This document shows positions 2,192 through 64,000 of a stretch of 64,000 nucleotides of DNA, in pieces. Location: positions 620,001 to 684,000 of the forward strand of contig NZ_CP031704.1 in assembly GCF_003428335.1 (NCBI RefSeq), in the 5' to 3' direction. The notes under the pieces are model-generated. The model made no database searches. It was not told the DNA's origin and worked only from the letters and a program-made list of their open reading frames with translations. The translations under genes and the position numbers were made by a program. How positions within the stretch are numbered: the stretch's first letter is position 1; each line of letters opens with the position of its first letter. Source of the DNA: Solimonas sp. K1W22B-7. Lineage in GTDB: Bacteria; Pseudomonadota; Gammaproteobacteria; Nevskiales; Nevskiaceae.

Positions 2192-3169
2192 ATGGAACGC
2201 AGGGAACCCAGTCTTGAAACCGAAGCAAACCCGCCGCTGCGCGCCGCGCGCAGCGAGCCTGTAGTGGCGCCCCGTCCGCGCCGGCGCAAGGGTGGCCTGC
2301 GCCGCTGGTTCTGGGGGCTGCTGCTGTTCGTCGTGCTATTCGTGCCGGTGACGGTGCTGCTGCTGCGCTGGCTGCCGCCGCCGGTCACCGCTTTCATGCT
2401 GCAGAGCCCGAAACACCCGGTGCAGTACGACTGGGTGCCTGCCTCGCAGATCGCCGAGGTGGCGCGCAAGGCGGTGGTCGCTTCGGAGGACCAGAAGTTC
2501 TGGGACCACAACGGTTTCGACCTGGAGGCGATCGAGAAGGCGCGGGCGCACAACAAGCGCTCCAAGAAGCGCCGCGGTGCGTCCACGATCAGCCAGCAGA
2601 CCGCCAAGAACCTCTATCTGTGGTCGGGCGGCGGTTACTTCCGCAAGGGCGTGGAGGCCGGCATCACGCTGCTGATGGAAGCGACGTGGCCGAAGCAGCG
2701 CATCCTGGAGGTGTATCTCAACATCGCCGAGTTCGGCCCGGGCATCTATGGCGTGGAGGCGGCCGCGCAGGCCTACTTCAACAAGCCGGCGTCCAGGCTC
2801 AACGCCAACGAGGCGGCGCGGCTGGCGGCGGTGCTGCCCAGCCCGCGGCGCTGGAGCGCCAAGGCGCCAGGCGCCTACGTGCAGAAGCGCGTGCGCTGGA
2901 TCATGGGCCAGATGGGCTACGGCGCCCGCGTCGCCGAGCCGGAACCGCCGCCACCGCTGCCGGGTGAGCCGGTGGAGCCGGAGGGCTTGTTCGGGGGCGA
3001 TGCGCCGGCGGGCGGGGAGACGCCTGCGACCGGTGAGCTGCCGGTGGATGCTCCGGTCGGTGAGGGCGAGGTGCCGCCGCCGGTCGATGCGCCGGTGCAG
3101 AGCGAGCCGGTGCCATCGGAGGCTCCGCCTGTGGCGGAGCCGGCGGTGGAGTCGGCGCCGGTGCCGTAG
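2192..3169 (+). CDS. mtgA: monofunctional biosynthetic peptidoglycan transglycosylase with Pro/Glu-rich tail
   Basis: The enzyme polymerises lipid II into glycan strands in the periplasm. The 325-residue product has a basic cytoplasmic leader (PRPRRRKGGLRR), one membrane segment near residues 37-57, then the GT51 domain: ASEDQKFWDHNGFD with the catalytic Glu (EDQKF), KKRRGASTISQQTAKNL, and EVYLNIAEFGPGIYGVEAA. MtgA proteins usually stop near 230-250 residues; here about 75 further residues rich in Pro, Glu, Ala and Val follow, ending at VESAPVP. The tail is low-complexity and probably disordered. The gene begins 3 bases after the oxidoreductase stop. Confidence 0.93.
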   Translation: MERREPSLETEANPPLRAARSEPVVAPRPRRRKGGLRRWFWGLLLFVVLFVPVTVLLLRWLPPPVTAFMLQSPKHPVQYDWVPASQIAEVARKAVVASEDQKFWDHNGFDLEAIEKARAHNKRSKKRRGASTISQQTAKNLYLWSGGGYFRKGVEAGITLLMEATWPKQRILEVYLNIAEFGPGIYGVEAAAQAYFNKPASRLNANEAARLAAVLPSPRRWSAKAPGAYVQKRVRWIMGQMGYGARVAEPEPPPPLPGEPVEPEGLFGGDAPAGGETPATGELPVDAPVGEGEVPPPVDAPVQSEPVPSEAPPVAEPAVESAPVP

Positions 3170-3189
3170 AAGCGGGCCGCCTGATTTCC

Positions 3190-3305
3190 CCCTCTCCCGC
3201 TGGCGGGAGAGGGTAGGGTGAGGGTGGTGCATCGGCGGTCACGCACTTCGCCTCCGGTTGAAGGCTCCACCCTCACCCCAGCCCTCTCCTGCCAGCGGGA
3301 GAGGG
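3190..3305. repeat. MITE-like palindromic element, copy 1
   Basis: The element has inverted ends of about 40 bp (CCCTCTCCCGCTGGCGGGAG... against ...CCAGCGGGAGAGGG), each end itself a small hairpin, around a 40-base interior. The same element, in opposite orientation and with the interior about 85% identical by eye, lies at 62960-63077. It sits between the convergent mtgA and MFS genes. Confidence 0.8.
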
Positions 3306-3330
3306 GGCTAAGACCTGAGCGGGATTTTTT

Positions 3331-4911
3331 CTACTCCGCCCCCGCCGGATTCTCCGTCAACCGATACCGCGACGTGAACAGCAGCATCGGCACCGCCAGG
3401 CAGCTGACCCAGGCGATCAGGATCAGGGCGTCGTTGTAGGTCAGCACGCTGACCTGGCGCTCGATGCGCATCGACAGTTCCACCAGCGGCATCGGCAGCT
3501 CGCGCGACCAGCCGCCGTGTTCCACCACGAAATCGCGCACCGGTGCGCGCGACAGGCTCAGCGACTCGGTGAGGTTCTGCTCGTGCACCGCGCGGCGCCA
3601 GAAGATGATGGTGTTGATCGAGGCCAGGCCCAGCGCGCCGCCGAGGTTGCGCATCAGGCTGTACATGGCGCTGGCGTTCTTCAGCTCGTTCATCGGCAGC
3701 GTGCACAGCGACAGCGTGGAGCAGCACACCAGCGCCAGCATGAAGCCGGCACCGCGCAGGAACTGCGGCAGCGCCAGTTCGGCGAAGCCGGTGTCGGCGG
3801 TGAGATCGGTCATCATCCAGCTGCCGATCGCGACCAGCAGCGCCCCGATCGCGAACAGCAGGCGCATGTCGTAGCGCCGCGTCAGCCGTGCCGCGAAGGG
3901 GGCCGCCATGAACATCGAGATGCCGCCGATCATCAGCGTGTTGCCGATCTGCTGCGAGGTGAAGTCGCGGATCTGGCCGAGGAACACCGGCACGATGTAG
4001 TTGGTGGCGAACAGCGCGATGCTCAGCAGCAGCGCGGCGATGTTGGCCCAGAGGAAGTGGCGGTCGCGGAACGGCCGCAGGCTGACGATCGGGTTGTCGT
4101 GCGTGGTCACGCGGTGGAAGAACAGCAGGCCCGACACGACGCAGACCGTGGCCCAGGTGGTGATCGTCCCGTCGTCCAGCCAGTTGTGCCCGGGTCCTTC
4201 CTCCAGCACCCATTGCATGGAGCCCAGGAACAGCGCCATGTAGCAGCTGCCGCGCAGGTCGATGCTGCGCCACAGCGCCCAGTCGGGCCGGTCGATGCGC
4301 ACCAGCTGCCACACCAGCAGCGCCACCAGCAGGCCCGGCAGGAGATTGATCAGGAACAGCCAGTGCCAGGAGGTGGCGTCGGTGATCCAGCCGCCGACGA
4401 TCGGGCCCAGCACCGGCGCCGTGCTCATGGTGATGCCGGCCACCACCTGCGGCACCAGGCGTTTCTTCGGCGAGGGGAACAGCGCGTACATCGCCGCGAA
4501 GGAGCAAGGGATCATGCCGCCGCCGAGGAAGCCCTGCAGCGCGCGGAACAGGATCATCGACTCGATGCTCCAGGCGGTGGCGCAGAGGGCGCTGGCCAGG
4601 GTGAAGCCGAGCACGCTGACGGTGTAGTAGATCCGTGTCGACATCAGCCGCGTGAGATAGCCCGACAGCGGAATCGCGATGACCTCGGCGATCAGGTAGG
4701 CGGACTGCACCCAGCCCAGCTCGGTGGCGGTGGCGGACAGGCCCGCCTGGATCTGGTTGAGCGAACTGGCGACGATCTGGATGTCGAGGAAGGCCATGAA
4801 CGCCCCGAAGCTCATGGCGATGAAGCCGAACCAGGCGCGGCGTTCCTCCGGCGTCAGCGCGCTGCGGGGCTCCTCCTGCGGGAGGCTCACCGACTCGGCG
4901 GGGGTGCTCAT
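3331..4911 (-). CDS. MFS drug exporter, DHA2 (14-TM, EmrB/QacA) family
   Basis: The 526-residue product has a soluble N terminus of about 30 residues and then about 14 hydrophobic segments. Family signatures are visible: FLDIQIVASSLNQIQAGL in TM1, LGWVQSAYLIAEVIAIPLSG, and APVLGPIVGGWITD (motif C of the antiporter group). It should export hydrophobic compounds using the proton gradient across the inner membrane. No periplasmic adaptor (EmrA-like) gene is adjacent, so it may act alone or with a distant partner. Substrate unknown. Confidence 0.92.
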   Translation of the reverse strand: MSTPAESVSLPQEEPRSALTPEERRAWFGFIAMSFGAFMAFLDIQIVASSLNQIQAGLSATATELGWVQSAYLIAEVIAIPLSGYLTRLMSTRIYYTVSVLGFTLASALCATAWSIESMILFRALQGFLGGGMIPCSFAAMYALFPSPKKRLVPQVVAGITMSTAPVLGPIVGGWITDATSWHWLFLINLLPGLLVALLVWQLVRIDRPDWALWRSIDLRGSCYMALFLGSMQWVLEEGPGHNWLDDGTITTWATVCVVSGLLFFHRVTTHDNPIVSLRPFRDRHFLWANIAALLLSIALFATNYIVPVFLGQIRDFTSQQIGNTLMIGGISMFMAAPFAARLTRRYDMRLLFAIGALLVAIGSWMMTDLTADTGFAELALPQFLRGAGFMLALVCCSTLSLCTLPMNELKNASAMYSLMRNLGGALGLASINTIIFWRRAVHEQNLTESLSLSRAPVRDFVVEHGGWSRELPMPLVELSMRIERQVSVLTYNDALILIAWVSCLAVPMLLFTSRYRLTENPAGAE

Positions 4912-51356: not shown

Positions 51357-51440
51357 GCGGTCTCTATTGGCGGGCTTCCAACCCTTGTTATGCCCGCAGC
51401 CTAACAGGCTGCGGGCCGGGTGCCGACCCCTGAAAAAAGC

Positions 51441-51853
51441 CTAGTCCTCCCGGAAACCCTCGCCGAGGAAGCGACGCAGCGGCCTGCCGCGCTCCAGTTC
51501 ATGGTGCAGTTGCCGGCGCCCGGCGCGCAGCGATTGCCGGCCCAGCTCCTCCTGCTGCGCCAGCCGGCGGCCGAGCAGCAGCAGCGCCAGGCGGCGATAT
51601 CGGTCTGCCACAGCGCCATGCCGCAGCCGATGTCGTTGCCGACCAGCGCGGGGTAGAAGCGGCCCACCGAGAAGAACGCCGCGCCCACCGGATAGCCGCG
51701 GCCGGCGTGCAGGTCGGGCATGCCGGCGACGCGGCGCATGCCCGACAGGCGCGCGCTGGTCTGCAGCTGCTGGATCGCGTTGCCTTCGATCCAGGTGTCG
51801 TCCGCGGCGACGAGTACGACGCTCGCGGACAGGTGTTGTATGGGATTGCCCAT
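51441..51853 (-). pseudogene. rtcB-prfH deletion remnant
   Basis: From the ATG at 51853 the frame encodes a normal RtcB-type start (DDTWIEGNAIQQLQTSARL, MPDLHAGRGYPVGAAFF, LVGNDIGCGMALWQTD, with the conserved DIGCGM metal/GMP region). Right after that, near 51605, homology stops. In another frame the next 55 residues (YRRLALLLLGRRLAQQEE, RRQLHHELERGRPLRRFLGE) look like the C-terminal end of peptide-release factor PrfH. RtcB ligase and PrfH form a two-gene ribosome-repair unit elsewhere. The simplest reading is one deletion that removed the rest of rtcB and the front of prfH; neither can work. Confidence 0.75.
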
Positions 51854-53626: not shown

Positions 53627-54799
53627 TCAGCCCAGCCGCTGCAGGAACCAGCACGTCCCCAGCGCCAGCAGCGCGGCCGCCACCAGCCGATGACGCAGCG
53701 GTGGCCAGCGCGCCGCCAGCCACCACACCGGGATCACGAACAGCAGCTGGCCCAGTTCCACGCCGGCATTGAAGCCCAGCAGCGGCAGCAGCGGCACCGT
53801 GCTGGCGCGGTTGAGTTCGCCCAGCACGGCGGCGAAGCCCAATCCGTGGAACAGGCCGAACAGCGCGGTGCGCGTCGCGTCCAGGCGCGGGTCTTCGCTG
53901 CTGGCGGTGCCGGCGGTGATCAGCACCGCCGCCAGCGCCAGGGCCAGCGGCAGCACGCCGGCGAGCCAGCCCAGCAGGCCCAGCGACAAAGCGATGAGCC
54001 CGGCCTGGCGTGCGGCGCCAGCGCTGCCGCGCAGCAGGCGCTCGGCGGCGGCGCAGACGATGGTCAGCGCGATGAAGGCCTCCACCATCGAGGATTCCGG
54101 CCGCACCCAGCCGCGGCTGGCGAGCAGCAGCGTGACGCTGTGGCCCAGCGTGAATCCGGTGATGCGCCAGGCCAGTGGGCCGATGCTGCCGGCGCCCAGC
54201 AGCACGATCATCAGGAAGGCGAGGTGGTCCCAGCCGATCAGGATGTGCTCCGCCCCCAGCAGCAGGTAGCGCCCGAATTCCGGCGGTGCGGCGGCAGCCG
54301 CCGGCGACAGGTCCAGCGCCTGCTTGCCGGAGCCCATCGCCCAGGGACCGGAGAGCTGCCCGCCGTTGCTGAGCTGCAGCAGGTGCAGGTGGCCGGGCAC
54401 GCGGTCGAGCAGGAAGGCGGCGTGCAGCGTCTGCGGCTGCTGCTGGCAATGCCACGTGGCCTGCAGCAGCATCTCGCTGTCGCCGCGATGGCCTTCGCTG
54501 CGTGCGAGCGTGCAGGGCTGGCCGCCGGCGTCGAGCTGGAAGTAGCGGCCCGTCAGTGCCGCGATTTGCGCCGGCGCCTGCGTGTCGCGTGGGTCCCAGC
54601 CGGCGGGGTTGAGTACCGACATCGGCAGCCGCAGCTGCATGCTCACGTCCTCGCCGCTGATGGTCCAGCTGGAATAGGACACCGAGCGGCTGTGCGCGGA
54701 CGCGCTGCCGGAGCAGAGCAGCAACAGCAGGGCCAGCAGAGCGGCGAGCCCACCAGAATCCGTTCGTGCTGAGCTTGTCGAAGCACGGGCGGATTCCAT
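53627..54799 (-). CDS. HupE/UreJ-like membrane protein (first copy)
   Basis: This encodes about 390 residues from the ATG at 54799; an upstream in-frame ATG at 54886 would run through a repeat and is less likely. Signal peptide (ALLALLLLLCSGSASA), a soluble extracytoplasmic domain to about 180, then about seven membrane helices with the HupE pattern LLGAEHILIGWDHLAFLM and LFGLFHGLGFAAVLGELN. HupE/UreJ proteins are nickel/cobalt permeases; the His and Asp in GAEHILIGWDH are the expected metal ligands. It is cotranscribed with the PpiC-like gene just upstream. Confidence 0.85.
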   Translation of the reverse strand: MESARASTSSARTDSGGLAALLALLLLLCSGSASAHSRSVSYSSWTISGEDVSMQLRLPMSVLNPAGWDPRDTQAPAQIAALTGRYFQLDAGGQPCTLARSEGHRGDSEMLLQATWHCQQQPQTLHAAFLLDRVPGHLHLLQLSNGGQLSGPWAMGSGKQALDLSPAAAAAPPEFGRYLLLGAEHILIGWDHLAFLMIVLLGAGSIGPLAWRITGFTLGHSVTLLLASRGWVRPESSMVEAFIALTIVCAAAERLLRGSAGAARQAGLIALSLGLLGWLAGVLPLALALAAVLITAGTASSEDPRLDATRTALFGLFHGLGFAAVLGELNRASTVPLLPLLGFNAGVELGQLLFVIPVWWLAARWPPLRHRLVAAALLALGTCWFLQRLG

Positions 54800-54853
54800 C
54801 ACCGTACGGTCAATGGGTTGCCGCCCGCACTTCGACAGGCTCAGTGCGAACGG
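54760..54853. repeat. palindromic repeat at the hupE-like gene start
   Basis: Arms of 33 bp (54760-54792, beginning CCGTTCGTGCTGAGC, and 54821-54853, ending GTGCGAACGG) match at 28 of 33 positions. It is the common CTTCGACAGGCTCAG family of intergenic repeats. The predicted start codon of the HupE-like gene (54799) lies in the loop and its first 13 residues are encoded by one arm. Confidence 0.8.
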
Positions 54854-54872
54854 AAACCTGAACCTGGCCTTC

Positions 54873-55709
54873 TCAGGGCTGCGCATCGGGCGCGATCTTC
54901 ACCGGGATGTCGCGGCGCAGTTGCTCGAGCAGCCGCGCCAGCGCGGCGTCGGCCTGCTGCCGCGCCAGGTCGCTGCGCACAGCCTCGGCCACGTCCTCGT
55001 AGTGCGGGCTGTCCTGCTGGCGTTCGCGCAGCAGCAGGTACAGCTGTGCGTCACCGGCAGGCAGGGGGCCGAGCAGCTGGCCGGGCTGTGCCGACTGCAG
55101 GGCCGCCACCGCGCCGCCGCCGAGGTACTGCGCCAGCCGTGAAACCGGCAGGGCGGTATCCGGCAGCGTCACGGGCAGCAGCGGCGCGGTTGCCTGGCCC
55201 TGTTCCAGCGCGCTGCGCAGCAGGGCCGCGTCAGGAGCCTGCGCGCCGGCCGGCAGCAGCAGCGCCGCCACGCGCAGGCGCGGCTGCGGGGCGTAGCGCT
55301 GCGGCTGGCGGTCGAACAGCGCGCGGGTGGCGGCCTCGTCGGTGGTGCCGCCCGCGGTGGCGCCGTCCACCAGGGCGGCGATCACGGTCTTGCGCAGGCC
55401 GGGCTCGTCACGCACCAGGCCGCTGGCCAGGGCGTGCTGGAACAGCAGTTCCTCGTCCACCAGGCGCTGCAGGATGCGGGCGCGGGCAGCCGCGTCGAGC
55501 GCGCGGCCGCTGTCGCCCTGCACGGACTGCAGCGCACGCAACCATTCCTCGCGGCTGATCGTGTGCTCGCCCACCAGGGCGACGCTGCCGGCCGGCAGGC
55601 CGGGGCCGCGCCAGCTGTCCCAGAGCAGGGCGGCGCCGGCCAGCAGGCCGCCGGCCAGTACCGAAAGCCAGGCCAGGCGGGCGGAGGAAAGATTGGTGAC
55701 TTTCAACAT
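54873..55709 (-). CDS. PpiC-like (parvulin-type) peptidyl-prolyl isomerase, first copy
   Basis: This encodes 278 residues from the ATG at 55709. One N-terminal membrane segment (LAWLSVLAGGLLAGAALLW) anchors a periplasmic part. Residues 60-130 resemble the SurA-type N domain (RILQRLVDEELLFQHALASG), then a degraded parvulin region (RLRVAALLLPAGAQAPDAAL, GQLLGPLPAGDAQLYLLLRE). Few residues of a parvulin active site are clear, so it may be a chaperone rather than an isomerase. It heads a leftward two-gene unit with the HupE-like gene. Confidence 0.8.
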   Translation of the reverse strand: MLKVTNLSSARLAWLSVLAGGLLAGAALLWDSWRGPGLPAGSVALVGEHTISREEWLRALQSVQGDSGRALDAAARARILQRLVDEELLFQHALASGLVRDEPGLRKTVIAALVDGATAGGTTDEAATRALFDRQPQRYAPQPRLRVAALLLPAGAQAPDAALLRSALEQGQATAPLLPVTLPDTALPVSRLAQYLGGGAVAALQSAQPGQLLGPLPAGDAQLYLLLRERQQDSPHYEDVAEAVRSDLARQQADAALARLLEQLRRDIPVKIAPDAQP

Positions 55710-55710
55710 A

Positions 55711-55740
55711 TTGACATAGTGTAAACAAAGCGCCTCTAAT
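55711..55740 (+). promoter_or_regulatory. sigma70-type promoter for the DUF3604 operon
   Basis: TTGACA at 55711-55716 and TCTAAT at 55735-55740 are separated by 18 bp. It points toward the DUF3604 gene at 55778, leaving a leader of about 30 bases with GGGGGAGAC. It almost touches the start codon of the divergent PpiC-like gene. Confidence 0.7.
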
Positions 55741-55777
55741 GTGAAGCAGGCCGCCCCATGGAGGCGGTGGGGGAGAC

Positions 55778-58006
55778 GTGTTGAAGACCATCCTGAAGAT
55801 CGCCGCGGTGACGGCGGTGGTGATCGCCCTGCTGGCCGCTTTCGGCTGGTGGGATCGGCAGCAGGCACCGAAGGAAGTGGCCGGCACGATCGCGCCGGCG
55901 CGCGTGGATGCGGCCAGCCTGCAGGCGCGGGCCCGGGGCAACGCGGGCGAGGACGACCAGATCCTGTTCGGCGACCTGCACGTGCATACCACCTTCTCCA
56001 TGGACGCCTTCGTCTGGGCGCTGCCGCTGATGCATGGTCCGGGCTCGCGGCCGCCGGCGGATGCCTGCGACTACGCGCGCTTCTGCTCTTCGCTGGACTT
56101 CTATGCGCATACCGATCATGCCGAAAGCCTGACGCCGCGGCACTGGTCGATGATCAAGGACACGGTGCGCGCCTGCAATCAGGCCGCCGGCCCGGCCGGT
56201 AATCCGGACATCGTCGCCTTCCTCGGCTGGGAATGGACCCAGATGGGCAATTCGCCCGAGACGCACTACGGCCACAAGAACGTGATCCTGCGCGAGACCG
56301 CGGACGACAGGGTGCCGGCGCGGCCCATCGTGGCCGGCGGCGTGTCCTTCAATGCCATGCGCCACGACCCGCTGCCGGTGCCGGAGCGCATCGTCGGGCC
56401 CTACGCGGCGGACTTCCCCAACCGCCGCCTGCAGTTCCAGCAGCAGAACAAGCGCCAGGAGCTGATCGAGATCGCGCCCTGCCCGGTGGGCGTCAGTTCG
56501 CGCGAGCTGCCGGCCAACTGCATCGAGACGGCCGACACGCCGGGCGACCTGTTCCGCAAGCTCGACGAGTGGGGCGGCGAGGCGCTGGTGATTCCGCATG
56601 GCACGACCTGGGGCTACTACACGCCGCCGGGCTCCGACTGGACCAAGCAACTCACGCTCAAGCAGCATGACCCCAAGCGCCAGAAGCTGATCGAGATCTT
56701 TTCCGGTCACGGCAACGCCGAGCCCTACCGCGACTGGAAGGCGATCGCCTGGGACGCGCAGGGCAACGCGGTCTGTCCCGAGGCCAGCGACGACTACCTG
56801 CCCTGCTGCAAGCGCGCCGGCCAGATCATCCGCTCGCGCTGCGACGACCCCCGGTCGCCGGACTGCGAGGCGCGCGTGCAGCAGGTGGAGAAGAACTACC
56901 TCAAGGCCGGCCGCGCCGGGCACCTGACGGTGGCGGACGCCAGGCCGGAAGACTGGCTGGCCTGCGGCCAGTGCACCGACTGCTTCATGCCGCCGCTGAA
57001 TCACCGCGCCGGCAGCTCGGTGCAGGCGATCATGGCGCTGAGCAATCCGGCAGAGCGCGATGCCGACGGCGGCCCGCTGCGCTTCCACTTCGGCTTCATC
57101 GGCTCCAGCGACAACCACGCCGCCGAGGCCGGCACCGGCTTCAAGCAGGTCAACCGCCACTCCTCCACCGAAACGCGTGGCGCGCTCAACGCGCTGGTGC
57201 AACGCAATTTCATCGAGGCCGCCAAGCCCAAGGGCGATCCGCAGCAGCCGCGCGAGTTCACGCTGGGCTCCGGACCCTACAACTTCCTGCAGACCGCCGA
57301 GACCGAGCGCCAGGCCTCGTTCTTCTATACCGGCGGCCTGGTCGCGGTGCATGCCCCGGGCCGCGGGCGTGACCAGATCTGGGATGCCCTGCAGCGCAAG
57401 GAGGTCTACGGCACGTCGGGCCCGCGCATGCTGCTGTGGTTCGACCTGATCGGCGCCGACGGCCAGCGTCATCCCATGGGCTCCGAGCTGCAGGGCAGGG
57501 ACGTGCCGCGCTTCCGCGTCAAGGCGCAGGGCGCGTTCGTGCAGAAGCCGGGTTGCCCCGCCTGGACCGAGGCGGCCATCGGCCCGCAGCGCATCCAGCA
57601 GCTCTGCGGCGGCGAGTGCTACAACCCCGGCGATGCGCGCACGCCGATCGATCGCATCGAGATCGTGCGCATCCGCCGCCAGGAAAATCTCCACGATCCG
57701 CTCAAGCCGCTGATCGAGGATCCCTGGAAGGTGCTGCGCTGCGCCGACAGCGGCCAGGGCTGCACCGCCGAGTTCATCGATCCGGAGTACCCGTCGATGA
57801 ATCGCGAGCTGCTGTACTACGCCCGTGCGGTCCAGCGCGCCGAGCCCACCATCAACGGCGCTCAGCTGCGCTGCGAGCGGGACGCCAAGGGCCAGTGCAT
57901 CAAGGTCACGCCCTGTCATGGCGATGAGCGCACGCCGATCGACGATCTCTGCCTGGCCGAGGCGCAGCACCGCGCCTGGTCCAGCCCGATCTTTGTCCGG
58001 CCATAG
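55778..58006 (+). CDS. DUF3604 protein with PHP-type metal site, first copy
   Basis: This encodes 742 residues from GTG behind GGGGGAGAC. An N-terminal membrane anchor or signal (AAVTAVVIALLAAFGWW) exports it. The metal-binding motifs of the PHP phosphoesterase superfamily are present: FGDLHVHTTFS (His 68 and 70), HTDHAES (about 111-117), IPHGTTWG, IFSGHGN and GSSDNHAAEAG (about 441-451). DUF3604 enzymes are uncharacterised; a metal-dependent hydrolase or phosphoesterase is likely. Ten or more Cys in the middle suggest disulfides. First gene of a five-gene operon. Confidence 0.88.
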   Translation: MLKTILKIAAVTAVVIALLAAFGWWDRQQAPKEVAGTIAPARVDAASLQARARGNAGEDDQILFGDLHVHTTFSMDAFVWALPLMHGPGSRPPADACDYARFCSSLDFYAHTDHAESLTPRHWSMIKDTVRACNQAAGPAGNPDIVAFLGWEWTQMGNSPETHYGHKNVILRETADDRVPARPIVAGGVSFNAMRHDPLPVPERIVGPYAADFPNRRLQFQQQNKRQELIEIAPCPVGVSSRELPANCIETADTPGDLFRKLDEWGGEALVIPHGTTWGYYTPPGSDWTKQLTLKQHDPKRQKLIEIFSGHGNAEPYRDWKAIAWDAQGNAVCPEASDDYLPCCKRAGQIIRSRCDDPRSPDCEARVQQVEKNYLKAGRAGHLTVADARPEDWLACGQCTDCFMPPLNHRAGSSVQAIMALSNPAERDADGGPLRFHFGFIGSSDNHAAEAGTGFKQVNRHSSTETRGALNALVQRNFIEAAKPKGDPQQPREFTLGSGPYNFLQTAETERQASFFYTGGLVAVHAPGRGRDQIWDALQRKEVYGTSGPRMLLWFDLIGADGQRHPMGSELQGRDVPRFRVKAQGAFVQKPGCPAWTEAAIGPQRIQQLCGGECYNPGDARTPIDRIEIVRIRRQENLHDPLKPLIEDPWKVLRCADSGQGCTAEFIDPEYPSMNRELLYYARAVQRAEPTINGAQLRCERDAKGQCIKVTPCHGDERTPIDDLCLAEAQHRAWSSPIFVRP

Positions 58007-58018
58007 CGGAGCCCGATC

Positions 58019-58801
58019 ATGCAGCGCTTCCTCGACGCCCTCAGCCGCCTGCAGCAACGCCACGCGCTGCTGCTGTTCCTCGGCCTGGGCGCGCTGCTGT
58101 TCGCGGTGGATGGCCTGCGCCAGCGCGGCGAGTCGCTGACGCCGCCCACGGCCAGCGCCGAAGGGCAGACCGCGGAGCAGTGGCTGGAAGACGAAGTGCT
58201 GTACCGCGAGGCCATCGCGCGCGGGCTGGGCGAGGGTGACCTGATCGTGCGCCGCCGCCTGGTGCAGAAGATGCGCCTGCTGCTGGAGACCGGTGTCGAC
58301 GTGGCCGAGCCCAGCGACCGGCAACTGCGCGATTGGGTCGGCGTGCATGCCGGCCGCTATGGCGGACTGGAGCGCCTGAGCTTCGAGCACGTGTTCCTGT
58401 CGCGCGGCCTGCGCGACGCACACCTGGCCAGCGATGCCGCGGCGCTGGGCGCAGTGCTGCAGGCGGATCCGGGCGACCTGGACAAGCTCAGCGATCCGCA
58501 TCCGGGTGGCACGCATCCGGCGGCGCTGAGCCAGCGCGATGTCGAGCGCATGTTCGGTACGCCGTTCTCGATGCTGCTCGCGGAACTGCCGCAGGGCCAG
58601 TGGCAGGGCCCGCTGCCTTCGGCGATGGGCCTGCACTTCGTGCGCATCCGGGATCGCCGTCTGGCGCAGCCCGACTACGCCGCCGTGCGCGAGCGTGCGC
58701 AGCGCGACTACCTGCTGGAGCGCCGCGCCGAAGAGACGCGCCTCGCCGTGCAGCAGCTCAAGACCCGCTACGGCCTCGACACCGGGCGCGGAACGCCCTG
58801 A
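58019..58801 (+). CDS. PpiC-like (parvulin-type) protein, second copy
   Basis: This encodes 260 residues with an N-terminal membrane segment (RHALLLFLGLGALLFAVDGL is the core), a SurA-like region (LEDEVLYREAIARGLGEGDL, LVQKMRLLLETG) and a parvulin-like half (LSFEHVFLSRGLRD, LPQGQWQGPLPSAMGLHFVR). Homologous to the protein at 54873. It lies 12 bases after the DUF3604 stop and overlaps the HupE-like start (TGATG), so folding of neighbouring exported proteins is a reasonable guess. Confidence 0.85.
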   Translation: MQRFLDALSRLQQRHALLLFLGLGALLFAVDGLRQRGESLTPPTASAEGQTAEQWLEDEVLYREAIARGLGEGDLIVRRRLVQKMRLLLETGVDVAEPSDRQLRDWVGVHAGRYGGLERLSFEHVFLSRGLRDAHLASDAAALGAVLQADPGDLDKLSDPHPGGTHPAALSQRDVERMFGTPFSMLLAELPQGQWQGPLPSAMGLHFVRIRDRRLAQPDYAAVRERAQRDYLLERRAEETRLAVQQLKTRYGLDTGRGTP

Positions 58802-59772
58802 TGCATCGCCTGCTCGTCCTGCTGGTCGTACTGCTGTCGGCGCCCGCTGCCTGGGCGCATTCCATGAGCAGCGCGCAATGGCGCCTGAGCCAGGTGGACG
58901 CGCAGACCTGGGACAGCCGCCTGCGCCTGCCGGAAGATTTCGAAGGCCGCCTGATGTCGCTCAAGACGCTCGGCCCCGTTGGCTGCGAGCGCCTGGGCGA
59001 GACCCACACGCAGCCGGCTGAAGAAGGCCTGGTGATGCATTGGCGCCTGCGCTGCCCGCAGGGCCTGCAGGGTCCGCTGGGCCTGGAGGGCTTCACCATC
59101 CAGCTGTCCGACGCGGTGCTGCTGCTGCAGCCGCTGCAGGGCGCGCCGCAGTACGCGGTGCTGTCGGCGGTGAACCCGCAGTGGACGCCGCAGCAGAAGG
59201 CCGCAGCGCCGCCCGTGCCGCAGTACCTGGTGCTGGGCGTGGAGCACATCCTGCTGGGCGTCGATCACCTGCTGTTCGTGCTCGGCCTGTTCCTGCTGTG
59301 GCGCCGCAGCGGTGCCGGTGTCGGCAGGCTGGTGGGCACGCTCACCGCGTTTACGGTGGCGCATTCGGTCACCCTGGCCGGCGCCATGCTGCGCGGCTGG
59401 ACGCTGCCGGGTGGTGCGGTGGAGGCCTGCATCGCGGCGTCCATCCTGCTGCTGGCGGTGGAACTGGCGACCGGTGCCAGGGGCCTGGCGCAGCGCCGGC
59501 CCGCGGGCATCGCCTTTGCCTTCGGCCTGCTGCATGGCTTCGGCTTTGCCGGTGCGCTGGCCGAGACCGGCCTGCCCGAGCAGGCGCGCGGCTGGGCGCT
59601 GGCGGCTTTCAACCTGGGCGTGGAAGCGGGGCAGTTGCTGTTCGTGCTGGGCCTGCTGGCGGCGCTGCGCCTGCTGCGGCCGCAGCCGCGCTGGGCGCCG
59701 CTGGCGCTCTGCGCCTATGGCGCGGTGGCGGCGTACTGGCTGATCGAACGCAGCGCGGCGGTGTTGTTGTGA
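58801..59772 (+). CDS. HupE/UreJ-like membrane protein, second copy
   Basis: This encodes 323 residues: signal peptide (MHRLLVLLVVLLSAPAAWA), a soluble domain of about 115 residues, then about seven helices with VLGVEHILLGVDHLLFVLGL and GLLHGFGFAGALAETGLP. Homologous to the copy at 53627. The GVEHILLGVDH block holds the expected metal ligands. Translationally coupled to the PpiC-like gene before it and overlapping the region before the second DUF3604 gene. Confidence 0.87.
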   Translation: MHRLLVLLVVLLSAPAAWAHSMSSAQWRLSQVDAQTWDSRLRLPEDFEGRLMSLKTLGPVGCERLGETHTQPAEEGLVMHWRLRCPQGLQGPLGLEGFTIQLSDAVLLLQPLQGAPQYAVLSAVNPQWTPQQKAAAPPVPQYLVLGVEHILLGVDHLLFVLGLFLLWRRSGAGVGRLVGTLTAFTVAHSVTLAGAMLRGWTLPGGAVEACIAASILLLAVELATGARGLAQRRPAGIAFAFGLLHGFGFAGALAETGLPEQARGWALAAFNLGVEAGQLLFVLGLLAALRLLRPQPRWAPLALCAYGAVAAYWLIERSAAVLL

Positions 59773-59786
59773 AGACGGAGAGCGGC

Positions 59787-62096
59787 ATGCAGGTCATTTC
59801 GGCGAACATGATGCACGTGACGCTGCGCGCACTGGCGCTGGCGGCAGCGACACTCCTGGCCGCCTGCGGCCGCTCCGAAGCGCCGTCGGGCACGGATACA
59901 CCGCCCACGGAGAATCCCCCGGGCACCGTGCAAGGCGAATGCGGCCCCGTGGTGCCCGGGCGCAAGCAGGCGCTGTACGGCGACCTGCATGTGCACACCA
60001 GCTATTCCTTCGACACCTACTTCTTCAACTCCATCAACGGCCCGCGCGAGGCGATCCGTTTCGCCAAGGGCGAGCCGGCGGGCTACCCCGCGGGTGACAC
60101 CGACCCCGACACGCCGGTGACGCACGAGACGCTGGACCGTCCGCTGGATTTCGTGGCGCTCACCGACCACGCCGAGTTCCTGGGGGCCTTCAAGCTGATC
60201 TGCGAAGCCGGCGGCGCGGTGCCGCCGGGGACCAACCCGGTGTGCAACATCATCGGCAACAACATCCGCGGCAACATCCGCGCCTTCGTCGAAGGCACGA
60301 CCACGCCGTTCCAGATTCTCATCCAGACGCTGCTGGCCGAGAGTCCCACGGACCGCAGCGCCTGGGCGCAGGAGCGCGCGATCACCGACGAAGAGTACGT
60401 GCCCTGCAGCTTCTCCACGCTGCACGGCTACGAGTTCAGTTCCAACAAGCGCGGCCAGATGCTGCACCGGAACATCATCTTCCGCGGCCCCGCCGACGAG
60501 GTGCCGGACACGGTGTTCGCCTCGGTGACGCTGACCAGCGGCATCGACGATCGCAACGTCAACGACGAGTGGATGCTGTTCGACCACCTGCAGACCGAGT
60601 GCGGCGGCGTTCCCGACTGCAAGGCGCTGACCATTCCGCACAGCGCCAACCTGTCGGACGGCCGCTTCTTCATGCCGCGCGACTTCGCCACCGGCCTGCC
60701 GCCGGGCCGAGACGGCGTGGCGCTGACGCGCGGCGACGCCGAGCTGCGGCGCAATTACGACCGCGTGTTCGAGATCTACCAGCACAAGGGCGGCTCGGAA
60801 TGCGCCGTGGGCCTGGAGGGCAACTACCTGGAAGGCGAAGAGGGCAGCTGCGACTTCGAGCTGACCAAGAACGTCTGCGCCGGCCTGCCGGACGATCCGC
60901 CGGCCTGCGCCAGGTACTGCACGGGCGATCCTTCGCGTGACCCCAGCTTCTGCTCGCTGCGCCAGGAGCCCACCTATCTCACGCGCGTCTGCGACACCGC
61001 CGGGCCCAACGGTGCCTCCGGCCCCGCCGCCAACTGCAGCACGCCGCTGGACTACTTCCGCAACATCATGGCCGAGGGCCTGAGCCTGCGCAGCGTGCTG
61101 GGGATCAACCCCTATCGCCAGGGCATCATCGCCAGCACCGACACGCACAACGGTACGCCGGGCATGACGCGCGAGCGCATGTACCCCGGCCACGGCGGCG
61201 TGCTGGAAGACGAGCCCAAGGACCACCTGGGCCTGTGGGCCTGCGACAACAAGAACCAGGACCCCAACGACCCGGCCAACTGCACCAACCGCGTCTTCAC
61301 CGACCGCGCGCGCGGCTTCGGCACCGGCGGCATGGCCGGCGTGTGGTCGGCCGAGAACACGCGCGGCCAAGTCTGGGACGCATTGCACCGCGGCGAGACT
61401 TTCGGTACCTCGGGCCCGCGCCTGCGCATCCGCATGCAGGCCAGCTGGACACCGCCGCCGGCCGACATCTGCGCGAAGCTGGCGCAGGGCGGCGAGAGCG
61501 TCACCCCTGCCACCGGCGCGGTGATGGGCGGCAACCTGCCGCCGAAGCCTGCCGGCGCCACGGCGCCCTACATCACCGTCTGGGCGATGCAGGACCCCGG
61601 CGGCTCGGAGCCGACGCTGCCGCTGCAGGCGATCGACATCGTCAAGGGCACGCTCGACGCCAGCGGTGCTCCGAAGGTGCGCGCCTACGACAACGTGGTG
61701 AAGACCACGCACCCGGTGCAGCGCCCGGCGCCGGACTGCTCGGTGGCCGTCGGCGGCCATCCCGACCAGCTCTGCGTCACCTGGCAGGACCCGGATTTCC
61801 ACGGCGACCGCGATGCCTACTGGTACGCCCGCACCCGCGAGATTCCCAGCTGCCGCTGGAGCACGCAGCTCTGCGTGTCCAAGGCCGTGAACTGCGCCGC
61901 GCTGGACCCTGCCAACGGCGTCTTCCCGGCCGAGAGCGGCTGGCAGGGCTACGAAGGCTGCTGCCGCATGGAAGGCGCGCCCGGCACGTTCCAAGGCCGC
62001 AACATTTTCGCAACGCTCGAGGAGCGCGCCTGGGCCTCGCCCGTCTGGTACGAAACCCCGGCACCCTCTCTGCTCAAGGCCAGGAAGCAACCATGA
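59787..62096 (+). CDS. DUF3604 lipoprotein with PHP-type metal site, second copy
   Basis: This encodes 769 residues from the ATG at 59787, which follows GGAG by six bases. ALAAATLLAACGRSE is a lipobox with Cys 27, so the protein is probably membrane-tethered. The motifs YGDLHVHTSYS (His 68 and 70), ALTDHAEFLG and ASTDTHNGTPG (about 448-458) match the first copy. Sequence divergence from that copy is large and the insert pattern differs, so the two probably have different substrates. It overlaps the SDR gene by four bases. Confidence 0.88.
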   Translation: MQVISANMMHVTLRALALAAATLLAACGRSEAPSGTDTPPTENPPGTVQGECGPVVPGRKQALYGDLHVHTSYSFDTYFFNSINGPREAIRFAKGEPAGYPAGDTDPDTPVTHETLDRPLDFVALTDHAEFLGAFKLICEAGGAVPPGTNPVCNIIGNNIRGNIRAFVEGTTTPFQILIQTLLAESPTDRSAWAQERAITDEEYVPCSFSTLHGYEFSSNKRGQMLHRNIIFRGPADEVPDTVFASVTLTSGIDDRNVNDEWMLFDHLQTECGGVPDCKALTIPHSANLSDGRFFMPRDFATGLPPGRDGVALTRGDAELRRNYDRVFEIYQHKGGSECAVGLEGNYLEGEEGSCDFELTKNVCAGLPDDPPACARYCTGDPSRDPSFCSLRQEPTYLTRVCDTAGPNGASGPAANCSTPLDYFRNIMAEGLSLRSVLGINPYRQGIIASTDTHNGTPGMTRERMYPGHGGVLEDEPKDHLGLWACDNKNQDPNDPANCTNRVFTDRARGFGTGGMAGVWSAENTRGQVWDALHRGETFGTSGPRLRIRMQASWTPPPADICAKLAQGGESVTPATGAVMGGNLPPKPAGATAPYITVWAMQDPGGSEPTLPLQAIDIVKGTLDASGAPKVRAYDNVVKTTHPVQRPAPDCSVAVGGHPDQLCVTWQDPDFHGDRDAYWYARTREIPSCRWSTQLCVSKAVNCAALDPANGVFPAESGWQGYEGCCRMEGAPGTFQGRNIFATLEERAWASPVWYETPAPSLLKARKQP

Positions 62097-62953
62097 TCAA
62101 GGATTTCAGGAACAAGCTCTGCGTCATCACCGGCGGCTCCAGCGGCATCGGGCTGGCGGTGGCCGAGGCGCTGGCACGCGAGGGCGCACGCCTGCTGCTG
62201 CTGGCGCGCGACCCCGCGCAGCTGGAGCGAGCCGCGCAGCAGCTGCGCGAGATGGGCGCGGCCGACGTCGCCACCATCAGCGCCGATGTGAGCCGCGACG
62301 AAGACATCGCGCGCCTGCCTGCCGCGATCCACGCCATGGGCCCGGCGGCAGACCTGGTGGTGAACAGCGCCGGCATCGTCAGCGGTGGCCTGATGCACGA
62401 GGTGCCGATGGCGGAATGGCGGCGCCTGCACGAGATCAACGTGCTGGGCGTGGTGCGCGTGATCAACGCCGTGGTACCCGACATGCTGGCGCGCTCCGCG
62501 CGCGGCGAGGGCGGCGGACACATCGTCAACATCGCCTCCGGCGCCGGCCTGGTCGGCTTCACCGGCCTGGGCAGCTACGTCGCCACCAAGGCCGCGGTGG
62601 TGGGTTTCAGCGAAAGCCTGCGCAGCGAACTGGCCGCCGCCGGCATCGGCGTCACCGCCGTGTGCCCGGGCTTCGTGCAGACCCCCATCGCCTCCAAGGT
62701 GCAGCTGTTCGGACGCATGGACACACCGCGCACGCAGGCCTTCATCCAGAACTGGTTCGTGCGCAACAACCTCAAGGCCGAAACCGTGGCCGCGCGCACG
62801 CTGTCCGCGGTGCGGGCCAACCGCGCGGTGATGGTGGTGGGCCGCGACGCCGTGTCGGGCTACTGGACCAAGCGCCTCGCACCCTGGCTGCTCGACCGCG
62901 TGATGAAGCGCTCCGCGCGACCGCTGACGGCCGCGCGCAAGAAAGCGGCGTAG
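62093..62953 (+). CDS. short-chain dehydrogenase/reductase
   Basis: This encodes 286 residues: TGGSSGIGLAVAEALAREGA (about 14-33), NSAG (about 91-94), the Ser in NIASGAGLVGF and the YVATK pair (about 161-165). The C-terminal extension RNNLKAETVAARTLSAVRAN is typical of classical SDRs near membranes. Its start overlaps the DUF3604 stop (ATGA), so it is the last gene of this operon. Substrate unknown. Confidence 0.9.
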   Translation: MIKDFRNKLCVITGGSSGIGLAVAEALAREGARLLLLARDPAQLERAAQQLREMGAADVATISADVSRDEDIARLPAAIHAMGPAADLVVNSAGIVSGGLMHEVPMAEWRRLHEINVLGVVRVINAVVPDMLARSARGEGGGHIVNIASGAGLVGFTGLGSYVATKAAVVGFSESLRSELAAAGIGVTAVCPGFVQTPIASKVQLFGRMDTPRTQAFIQNWFVRNNLKAETVAARTLSAVRANRAVMVVGRDAVSGYWTKRLAPWLLDRVMKRSARPLTAARKKAA

Positions 62954-62959
62954 TTTTCT

Positions 62960-63077
62960 CCCTCTCCCGCTGGCGGGAGAGGGCTGGGGTGAGGGTGGAG
63001 CCTTCAAACGGAGGCGCTGTGCGTAACCGCCACTGCACCACCCTCACCCCAACCCCTCTCCCGCCAGCGGGAGAGGG
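62960..63077. repeat. MITE-like palindromic element, copy 2
   Basis: This is the same element as 3190-3305 but in the other orientation: terminal hairpins CCCTCTCCCGCTGGCGGGAG and ...CCGCCAGCGGGAGAGGG with a conserved interior (GCCTTCAAACGGAGGCG, GTGCGTAACCGCC). In a 48-base stretch centred on the interior I count 42 matches to the reverse complement of copy 1. Confidence 0.82.
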
Positions 63078-63099: not shown

Positions 63100-64000
63100 T
63101 TGAAGAAGCTCCTGCTTGCCCTTGTCGCCTTGATCGCCATCAGCCTCGCCGCCTTCCAGCTGCCCGCCGTGCAGGACCGCCTGGTGGACCAGGCGATCCG
63201 CCGCAACATGGACAACGCCGACCGCGGCGCGCTGTTCAACGACGACGCGCTGCGCCTGCTGGTCTGCGGCAGCTCCTCGCCGTTCCCTTCCGAGGACCGC
63301 GCGCGGCCCTGCCTGGCCGTGATCGCCGGCGGCAAATTCTACGTGGTGGACACCGGCCCCGGCTCCTGGAACCGCATGGCGCTGCTGCGCATCCCCGGCG
63401 AGCGCATCGGTGGCGTGCTGCTGACGCATTTCCATTCCGACCATATCGGCGACCTCGGCGAGTTCAACATGCAGACCTGGGTCGCCGGCCGCCCCGGCCC
63501 GCTGCCGGTCTACGGCCCGCCGGGCGTGGAGCGCGTGGTCGCCGGCTATACCGAGGCCTATGCACTGGACAACGGCTACCGCGTCGCCCATCACAGCGCC
63601 GAGTTCCTGCCGCCCGGGAAGGGCCTGATGGAAGCGCATGCGGTGGACGCGCACGATGGCGCCAGGCCGCTGTTCACCGACGGCGAATTGCGCGTGACGA
63701 TCTTTCCCGTACACCACAACCCGATCGAGCCCGCCGTGGGCTACCGTTTCGACTACAAGGGGCGCTCGCTGGTGATCAGCGGCGACACCACCAAGGACCC
63801 GCGCCTCACCGCCGTGGCCAGGGGCGCAGACCTGCTGGCGCACGAGGCACAGAACCAGGAACTGGTCGCGCGCATGGCCAGCCTCGCCGGCGAACTGGAC
63901 CGCCCGCGCCTGAAGAAGGTGCTGGGCGACATCCCCAGCTACCACACCAGCCCGGTGGAAGCCGCCGGGGTGGCCAACGAGGCCGGCGTGAAGCTGCTGC
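63100..64000 (+). CDS. secreted metallo-beta-lactamase-fold hydrolase, truncated by window end
   Basis: At least 300 residues are encoded from a TTG start (MKKLLLALVALIAISLAAF, a signal peptide or anchor); no ATG precedes the homology. The metal site LTHFHSDHIGDLGEFN (HxHxDH, residues about 108-123) is intact, and VISGDTTKDP and LAHEAQNQELV supply later ligands. The layout resembles the ribonuclease Z/arylsulfatase-like branch with unknown substrate. The reading frame is still open at the last base of the window. Confidence 0.85.
   Translation, partial: MKKLLLALVALIAISLAAFQLPAVQDRLVDQAIRRNMDNADRGALFNDDALRLLVCGSSSPFPSEDRARPCLAVIAGGKFYVVDTGPGSWNRMALLRIPGERIGGVLLTHFHSDHIGDLGEFNMQTWVAGRPGPLPVYGPPGVERVVAGYTEAYALDNGYRVAHHSAEFLPPGKGLMEAHAVDAHDGARPLFTDGELRVTIFPVHHNPIEPAVGYRFDYKGRSLVISGDTTKDPRLTAVARGADLLAHEAQNQELVARMASLAGELDRPRLKKVLGDIPSYHTSPVEAAGVANEAGVKLL

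Follow-up and report, generated by a model that had tools for sequence, protein, structure and literature searches.

Why would genes for a HupE/UreJ-2-type protein, a PpiC/SurA-like foldase of the peptidyl-prolyl isomerase kind (PPI) and a protein of the DUF3604 family stand side by side, and do so twice in one place? The question is raised by a 64,000-nucleotide stretch of Solimonas sp. K1W22B-7 (contig NZ_CP031704.1, positions 620,001 to 684,000; hereafter, the window), in which six core genes lie within 53.6–62.1 kb. The three families are all already known, and the novelty lies in their union: DUF3604 is kept together with two helper genes in at least three phyla, which suggests an undescribed maturation system. 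To our knowledge, the metal supply of Sec-exported metalloenzymes outside the cytoplasm is largely an open question. A three-gene unit that is kept over three phyla and carried as plasmid cargo is a concrete test system for periplasmic metallation.

The genes form two divergent units, as the initial annotation had described. HupE1 (53627–54886) and PPI1 (54873–55709), both of unit B, are on the minus strand, while DUF3604-B (55778–58006), PPI2 of unit A (58019–58801), HupE2 (58798–59772), DUF3604-A (59769–62096) and a short-chain dehydrogenase/reductase (SDR) gene follow in that order on the plus strand. PPI1 and DUF3604-B are separated by about 70 bp (55709/55778), and ends overlap by 1–4 nucleotides at PPI2/HupE2, HupE2/DUF3604-A and DUF3604-A/SDR. 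The occurrence of the same three protein types in both units is borne out by Pfam, as both HupE proteins (HupE1, 127.3 bits; HupE2, 134.6 bits) and both DUF3604 proteins (B, 86.7 bits; A, 366.3 bits) pass the cut-offs of PF13795 (HupE_UreJ_2, 24.5 bits) and PF12228 (20.4 bits), respectively. The label PpiC-like is apt as a likeness but not as a Pfam membership, since PPI1 (SurA_N_3, 24.4 bits; Rotamase_2, 22.2 bits) and PPI2 (Rotamase_2, 22.2 bits) stay below cut-offs of about 27 bits. Read by eye, all six core proteins appear to be exported or membrane-located, in agreement with the earlier description. Both PPIs are predicted to be membrane-anchored, DUF3604-B features a putative N-terminal membrane anchor, and the leader of DUF3604-A, ending in TLLAAC, is lipoprotein-like. 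The leader of HupE1 ends in SASA, before HSRS, and is followed by a periplasmic domain and a membrane domain; that of HupE2 ends before a histidine, residue 20 counting from the ATG at 58801. The start of HupE1 is uncertain (ATG at 54886 or at 54799) because a pair of repeats overlies its 5' end. The pair consists of two inward-facing copies of a 21-base repeat (54762–54851), with 2–3 mismatches to the typed pattern and two matches in the window against 0.01 expected.

The association was examined in near relatives, 29 of 61 of which (the window's own genome included) carry DUF3604 genes of three classes, called A, B and canonical. Thirty-nine stretches around these genes were fetched and scored with profiles built from the same set. 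A PPI gene lies within 5 kb of 44 of the 45 DUF3604 pieces and a HupE gene of 42, and the same 42 have both; the pieces exclude the window's own two genes and include one gene split over two contigs. Of the three exceptions, L047 is cut by a contig end, whereas in L044 and L050 PPI is directly 5' of DUF3604 and HupE is missing. Six further canonical genes (in G001, G003, G009, G015, G022 and G040), outside the fetched stretches, were judged by position: five of them have a HupE match less than 2 kb away, and in G022 a HupE match and DUF3604 are on separate contigs. The order of the genes varies (PPI-HupE-DUF3604, DUF3604-PPI-HupE, HupE-PPI-DUF3604 and divergent arrangements) across several classes and phyla.

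A pattern scan over 84,980 species genomes extended the comparison, and the best 80 of at least 474 candidates encoding a relative were kept. These loci are spread over Bacteroidota, Acidobacteriota, a number of Pseudomonadota classes and other groups. Among the best 80 of at least 474, both helpers are present at 37 loci, one helper at 3 (on contigs of 3.4–5.7 kb) and neither at 40; both are found at 20 of the 41 loci having more than 5 kb on each side, and at 35 of the 37 loci with both, less than 300 bp separates PPI from HupE. Thirty-one of the 40 helper-less loci, from 30 genomes, were followed further: a strong PPI (at least 165 bits) is encoded elsewhere in 29 of the 30 genomes, and HupE lies within the short fetched flank at 28 of 30 such loci. 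Some loci belong to more than one set, and L117 and L236 are the same place.

Co-occurrence was then counted in whole genomes. Among 299 genomes of Pseudomonadota, the phylum of the window (298 and the window's own), 22 besides the window's reach at least 231 bits with the PPI profile, and all remaining scores outside the window's genome are at most 87 bits. Without the window's genome, 20 genomes carry both a long DUF3604 and the PPI subfamily, 1 carries DUF3604 only, 2 carry PPI only and 275 carry neither (Fisher's exact test, 7e-28; this and all other Fisher values ignore kinship). The PPI subfamily is thus present in 20 of the 21 long-DUF3604 carriers. The DUF3604-only genome, G181, has the gene as three pieces in one frame, and one PPI-only genome has a remnant. 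Weak DUF3604 matches in G091, G187 and G262 were scored as absent; including the G091 fragment changes the value to 8e-27. In Bacteroidota, leaving out the genome on which the sample was centred, 2 genomes carry both, with the two genes adjacent by position, none carries one alone and 145 carry neither. The centre genome, G362, was chosen through a locus of DUF3604 lacking a strong PPI. In Acidobacteriota, again without the centre, the counts are 5, 4 (DUF3604 only), 2 (PPI only) and 107 (1e-5), where long DUF3604 means more than 450 bits, and seven genomes with weaker PHP-like matches and one with a lower PPI match were scored as absent. The association of the three families is above chance. 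The initial annotation had staked its proposal on an association extending beyond the genus, and it holds in three phyla.

The reverse approach, starting from the PPI profile alone, gave a similar picture in the Pseudomonadota sample. HupE is adjacent at all 25 strong PPI loci outside the window's genome, and DUF3604 at 21. Of the four loci lacking DUF3604, two belong to genomes that encode one at another place, one is flanked by a broken remnant and one has none.

What kind of protein is DUF3604? The ligand set HxH, DH, E, H, H, DxH, which we take to be that of the PHP superfamily, can be followed through DUF3604-A (H74, H76, D133-H134, E222, H233, H291, D458, H460) and DUF3604-B (H68, H70, D113-H114, E152, H166, H274, D445, H447). 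In an alignment of 168 rows covering A, B, canonical and wide sets, the eight His/Glu/Asp positions are intact in 156 of the 159 rows of at least 550 residues. Two of the three exceptions are cut by contig ends, and the third carries R in place of the last H. An AlphaFold2 (AF2) model of DUF3604-A (pLDDT 75, pTM 0.82), when re-aligned, matches PHP metal-dependent phosphoesterases (3e38, Z 15.4 over 234 residues at 3.7 Å; 2anu, Z 14.4), and its beta-rich C-terminal part gives weak Ig/FN3-like rows (Z below 4). Sequence searches of the PDB with single DUF3604 proteins and with the DUF3604 alignment returned no credible relative. CehA/McbA, a PHP-type carbaryl/oxamyl hydrolase, is the only curated NCBIfam hydrolase model to respond to DUF3604; DUF3604-A (12.5 bits) and the canonical protein (22.9 bits) are far under the NF038032 cut-off of 80 bits and DUF3604-B has no match. 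The fold search listed no CehA chain either, to which we attach no weight. From the fold match, the conserved ligands and this sub-threshold response, DUF3604 is very likely a PHP-type metallohydrolase. The PHP metal site named in the initial annotation agrees with both the invariant positions and the fold, and DUF3604 now has a place among PHP-fold proteins together with two named helper genes.

The HupE proteins combine a predicted periplasmic domain with a membrane domain carrying HX5DH, presumably the HupE/UreJ metal permease motif. HX5DH is retained in 76 of 77 cassette HupE rows, both window proteins included, and in 12 of 12 class-B rows. The residue following the leader is H in 30 of 35 rows and D in 5 (alignment A3, by eye). 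In the HupE2 model (AF2, pLDDT 88), the periplasmic domain is beta-rich and the membrane half is helical. The top Foldseek match is ZrgA (E 9e-4), and upon re-alignment of the periplasmic domain the periplasmic zinc-binding proteins ZrgA (Z 10.6) and PA4063 (Z 9.9) lead; in the cassette protein, unlike in these two, the domain is joined to a permease-like membrane part. No PDB chain was matched by a sequence search with the HupE alignment.

The published relative is Ang-1, from a HupE/UreJ-2 protein of the same Pfam family, described in PMC12537917. It shares with HupE2 a leader cut before His, a membrane HupE domain and, probably, a periplasmic beta-sandwich; in the cassette protein the periplasmic domain is shorter. 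The Ang-1 structure (9gce) aligns to the HupE2 model with Z 7.7 (2.7 Å, 100 residues), just under the level called safe, and the alignment opens at chain residue 1 opposite HupE2 residue 20, the His after the leader. According to that article, Ang-1 has a Kd of 74 nM for Cu and of 220 nM for Ni, Cu is held in the crystal by the N-terminal His, and the closest fold is the V. cholerae zinc protein 8F1B (ZrgA). The fold evidence does not favour the nickel or cobalt supposed in the initial annotation: among solved structures, the HupE domain comes closest to zinc proteins, and the published one prefers Cu and, after it, Ni. The main text of PMC12537917 mentions neither DUF3604 nor a peptidyl-prolyl isomerase. 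Through the cassette, the anglerase domain, only recently described, gains a likely client.

Of the two His positions that we assume to be the parvulin-type pair of PpiC/SurA, the second, C-terminal one is conserved in class A (18/18) and canonical (12/12) PPIs and in most of the wide set (37/41), and in 3 of 12 class-B PPIs. The first is often Q, and PPI2 keeps both. Because the C-terminal His is mostly gone, class-B PPIs may act solely as holdases.

Taken as a working model, the cassette would consist of an exported metallohydrolase, DUF3604, and a dedicated maturation pair in the inner membrane. The PHP fold of DUF3604 is expected to hold about three metals. PPI, as a membrane-anchored periplasmic foldase, would keep the secreted hydrolase open, and the anglerase-type domain of HupE, beginning at its mature N-terminal His, would bind a transition metal near the HX5DH membrane domain and supply it to the PHP site. 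The hydrolase would probably act outside the cytoplasm and cleave ester-type bonds in organic molecules from the environment. A single pair could serve many DUF3604 paralogues of a genome and, at times, another exported hydrolase such as a CehA/McbA-like PHP protein or an alkylsulphatase. We consider this combination of holding foldase, metal-giving HupE and ester-cleaving DUF3604 moderately probable. Among the known systems, HupE/UreJ nickel permeases also place an HX5DH-type membrane domain next to a metalloenzyme, a hydrogenase or a urease; in the cassette, by contrast, the enzyme is exported and of PHP type, and the unit includes a gene for a foldase. The roles first assigned to the three proteins, with HupE handling metal, PPI folding and DUF3604 as the enzyme, survive as the reading with the most support, except that no HupE was found in two relatives.

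Several observations weigh against this model. No HupE was found in the whole genomes of G014 and G032, the sources of L044 and L050, which keep PPI and DUF3604; HupE is not strictly required. A long DUF3604 occurs without a strong PPI in G181, in G362 and in four Acidobacteriota genomes, two of which have DUF3604 at a contig start and two of which have partial matches. PPI is joined more constantly to HupE than to DUF3604 (25/25 versus 21/25), and among five weaker PPI loci, two (L252 and L253, 85–87 bits) have HupE without DUF3604 and three have neither; the foldase might serve HupE. Class-B PPIs mostly lack the parvulin-type His, and a plain Foldseek search with DUF3604-A gave no PDB match at E 0.001, with 3e38 first at E 3e-3. 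As far as we know, the characterised HupE proteins are importers into the cytoplasm, and such import would not feed a Sec-exported DUF3604, for which no obvious Tat signal is seen by eye. As for the counts, cassette PPIs served to build the PPI profile, which is biased towards them, eight candidates per genome were scored in the search of the 299 genomes, and the kinship ignored by the Fisher values adds to the apparent strength of the association.

The direction of metal flow is at issue in the strongest rival, metal scavenging with import. DUF3604 would hydrolyse a periplasmic metal-holding molecule, such as a metal-binding ester, the anglerase domain would catch the released metal, HupE would import it, and PPI would fold either the HupE domain or the hydrolase. 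Anglerase domains have indeed been proposed to feed the permease mouth (PMC12537917). A TonB-receptor cluster, one member of which was Pfam-checked, occurs in 13 of 107 clustered loci, and the near-constant HX5DH also suits a permease. Against this, the neighbours of the relatives are mostly catabolic or hydrolytic (glutathione S-transferase, sulphatase, alkylsulphatase, metallo-beta-lactamase (MBL)-fold and alpha/beta hydrolase genes) rather than metal-uptake genes, and in some genomes a single pair stands against eight to ten DUF3604 paralogues. We regard scavenging as unlikely, yet it is the alternative that retains most weight.

In Acidobacteriota, at least 10, 9 and 8 DUF3604 matches above 450 bits were counted in G652, G384 and G643, respectively, with one strong PPI each; these are lower bounds, ten candidates having been scored per genome. 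Such many-to-one numbers are easier to reconcile with a maturation service than with a channel working one to one. Other exported hydrolases may be clients as well. A CehA/McbA-like PHP protein (37.3 bits against a cut-off of 80) adjoins, or is one gene from, a DUF3604-free PPI-HupE pair in three relatives, and an alkylsulphatase gene is found beside the pair in L253. In the most general form of the maturation model, PPI and HupE/UreJ-2 would be a periplasmic metallation unit in which HupE acts as a membrane-bound metal donor to exported apo-enzymes and not only as an importer, with one pair activating as many as about ten DUF3604 paralogues along with further exported hydrolases (CehA/McbA-like proteins, alkylsulphatase, perhaps sulphatase and MBL-fold enzymes). 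We put this extension forward tentatively, as a possibility that would more probably fail than hold.

A further rival concerns what passes through HupE. HupE could transport or sense what the hydrolase produces, and not a metal, with PPI as the foldase of HupE. The invariable PPI-HupE pairing in the reverse search agrees with this, as does the membrane half of the HupE2 AF2 model, whose alignments to general transporter bundles reach middling Z values of up to 8.3; the conserved HX5DH and N-terminal His nevertheless fit metal binding, and PPI stays beside DUF3604 in G014 and G032, in which no HupE was found. We judge transport or sensing of a product to be distinctly improbable. That the three genes have no functional tie and merely co-travel on mobile DNA or share ancestry is very improbable: the cassette is cargo on both rhizobial plasmids opened and kinship inflates the counts, but the genes have been put together in different orders in several classes and phyla, and the pair is still present in genomes where the DUF3604 that was sampled has no helper beside it.

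As to mobility, 78 plasmid records have a relative, and two of them, both rhizobial, were read for gene content. The first, a conjugative S. meliloti plasmid, bears the series DUF3604-DUF3604-PPI-HupE, flanked by type IV secretion genes and by TraA/MobC genes; gene ends overlap at PPI and HupE. On an R. leguminosarum plasmid, two DUF1254 genes come first, then DUF3604, a gene for a hypothetical protein, PPI and HupE. As the NCBI annotation of these plasmids names all three neighbours, their adjacency can be read from database records. The cassette itself is not described in the open-licence PMC literature searched, in which DUF3604 appears in one article, in a transposon table, and anglerase likewise in one. 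No entry was found there for PF12228 or its InterPro number, nor for PHP, periplasmic and hydrolase together, and HupE combined with PpiC or peptidyl-prolyl gave nothing apparently relevant.

How old are the two units of the window? They had been taken as duplicated. A recent duplication is ruled out, as DUF3604-A and DUF3604-B are only 23% identical and the HupE proteins of units A and B, and likewise the PPIs, are far apart in quick trees; units A and B are old paralogous cassettes. A third, canonical DUF3604 gene, followed by PPI and HupE, is located at 1.33 Mb of the same genome. Most canonical members adjoin putative meta-cleavage pathway genes (aldolase, dehydrogenase and hydratase by eye, alpha/beta hydrolase by Pfam). 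In the HupE tree, whose rooting is unsure, a 100% split places the class-B proteins on the same side as HupE proteins from outside the cassettes; the PPI tree would allow a single origin. Class B may reflect two independent assemblies.

HupE genes also occur away from DUF3604. Among 41 such genes (L075–L114), PPI is present at 4 (L093, L097, L099 and L107) and missing at 37, and many adjoin c9/c10 genes (RND-type pump and adaptor, by eye), TPR and DUF4331 genes, or amidohydrolase or PGA_cap genes. We read HupE as a multi-purpose part and PPI as the mark of the cassette type. A HupE of about 375 residues is found with a TPR protein at 17 loci and with DUF4331 at 17, largely the same (e.g., L088, L091, L092, L098, L100 and L101), and seven loci add a small, weakly DUF4198-like protein. 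Compared with the PDB, the DUF4331-linked HupE gave weak calcium-binding proteins only. HupE proteins of L084, L089, L090, L095 and L096 lack HX5DH; four of the five adjoin an amidohydrolase with an adenine-deaminase C-terminal domain (one Pfam-checked), and the fifth is near such genes. L132 of Robertkochia (2943–3935) encodes a degenerate HupE that lacks HX5DH and forms a very long branch.

Two accessory genes follow the core genes on the plus strand. The SDR oxidoreductase (62096–62953; adh_short, 170 bits; cluster c1), directly 3' of DUF3604-A, adjoins DUF3604-A in several relatives too. The MBL-fold metallohydrolase (63100–63999; Lactamase_B_2, 64.5 bits) is partial, as it runs past the window end, and has a putative N-terminal membrane segment. 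Its cluster, c8 (MBL-fold, RNase Z-related), occurs at 15 places including the window, all in stretches of DUF3604 class A or B (L035–L052); a 16th member, in L074, is the same gene as that of the window. Elsewhere, in the 107 clustered loci, a sulphatase cluster has members at under 1 kb from a core gene in 14 distinct places. This raw count takes L117/L236 as one, omits L194 and the L171 fragment, and was Pfam-checked at L166 alone. DUF1254/DUF1214 genes are found within several kb of DUF3604 in nine loci (L120, L135, L136, L146, L149, L227, L228, L230 and L237, the last Pfam-checked), likewise a raw count.

Between the SDR and MBL-fold genes, a 30-nucleotide inverted repeat (62960–63077; 93% complementary, 58-nucleotide spacing) has a second pair nested in it and may be a dispersed palindromic element. 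To the left of the core genes, an RtcB-like frame of 150 residues (51401–51853), covering only the first 61 of 426 profile positions, is probably a truncated remnant.

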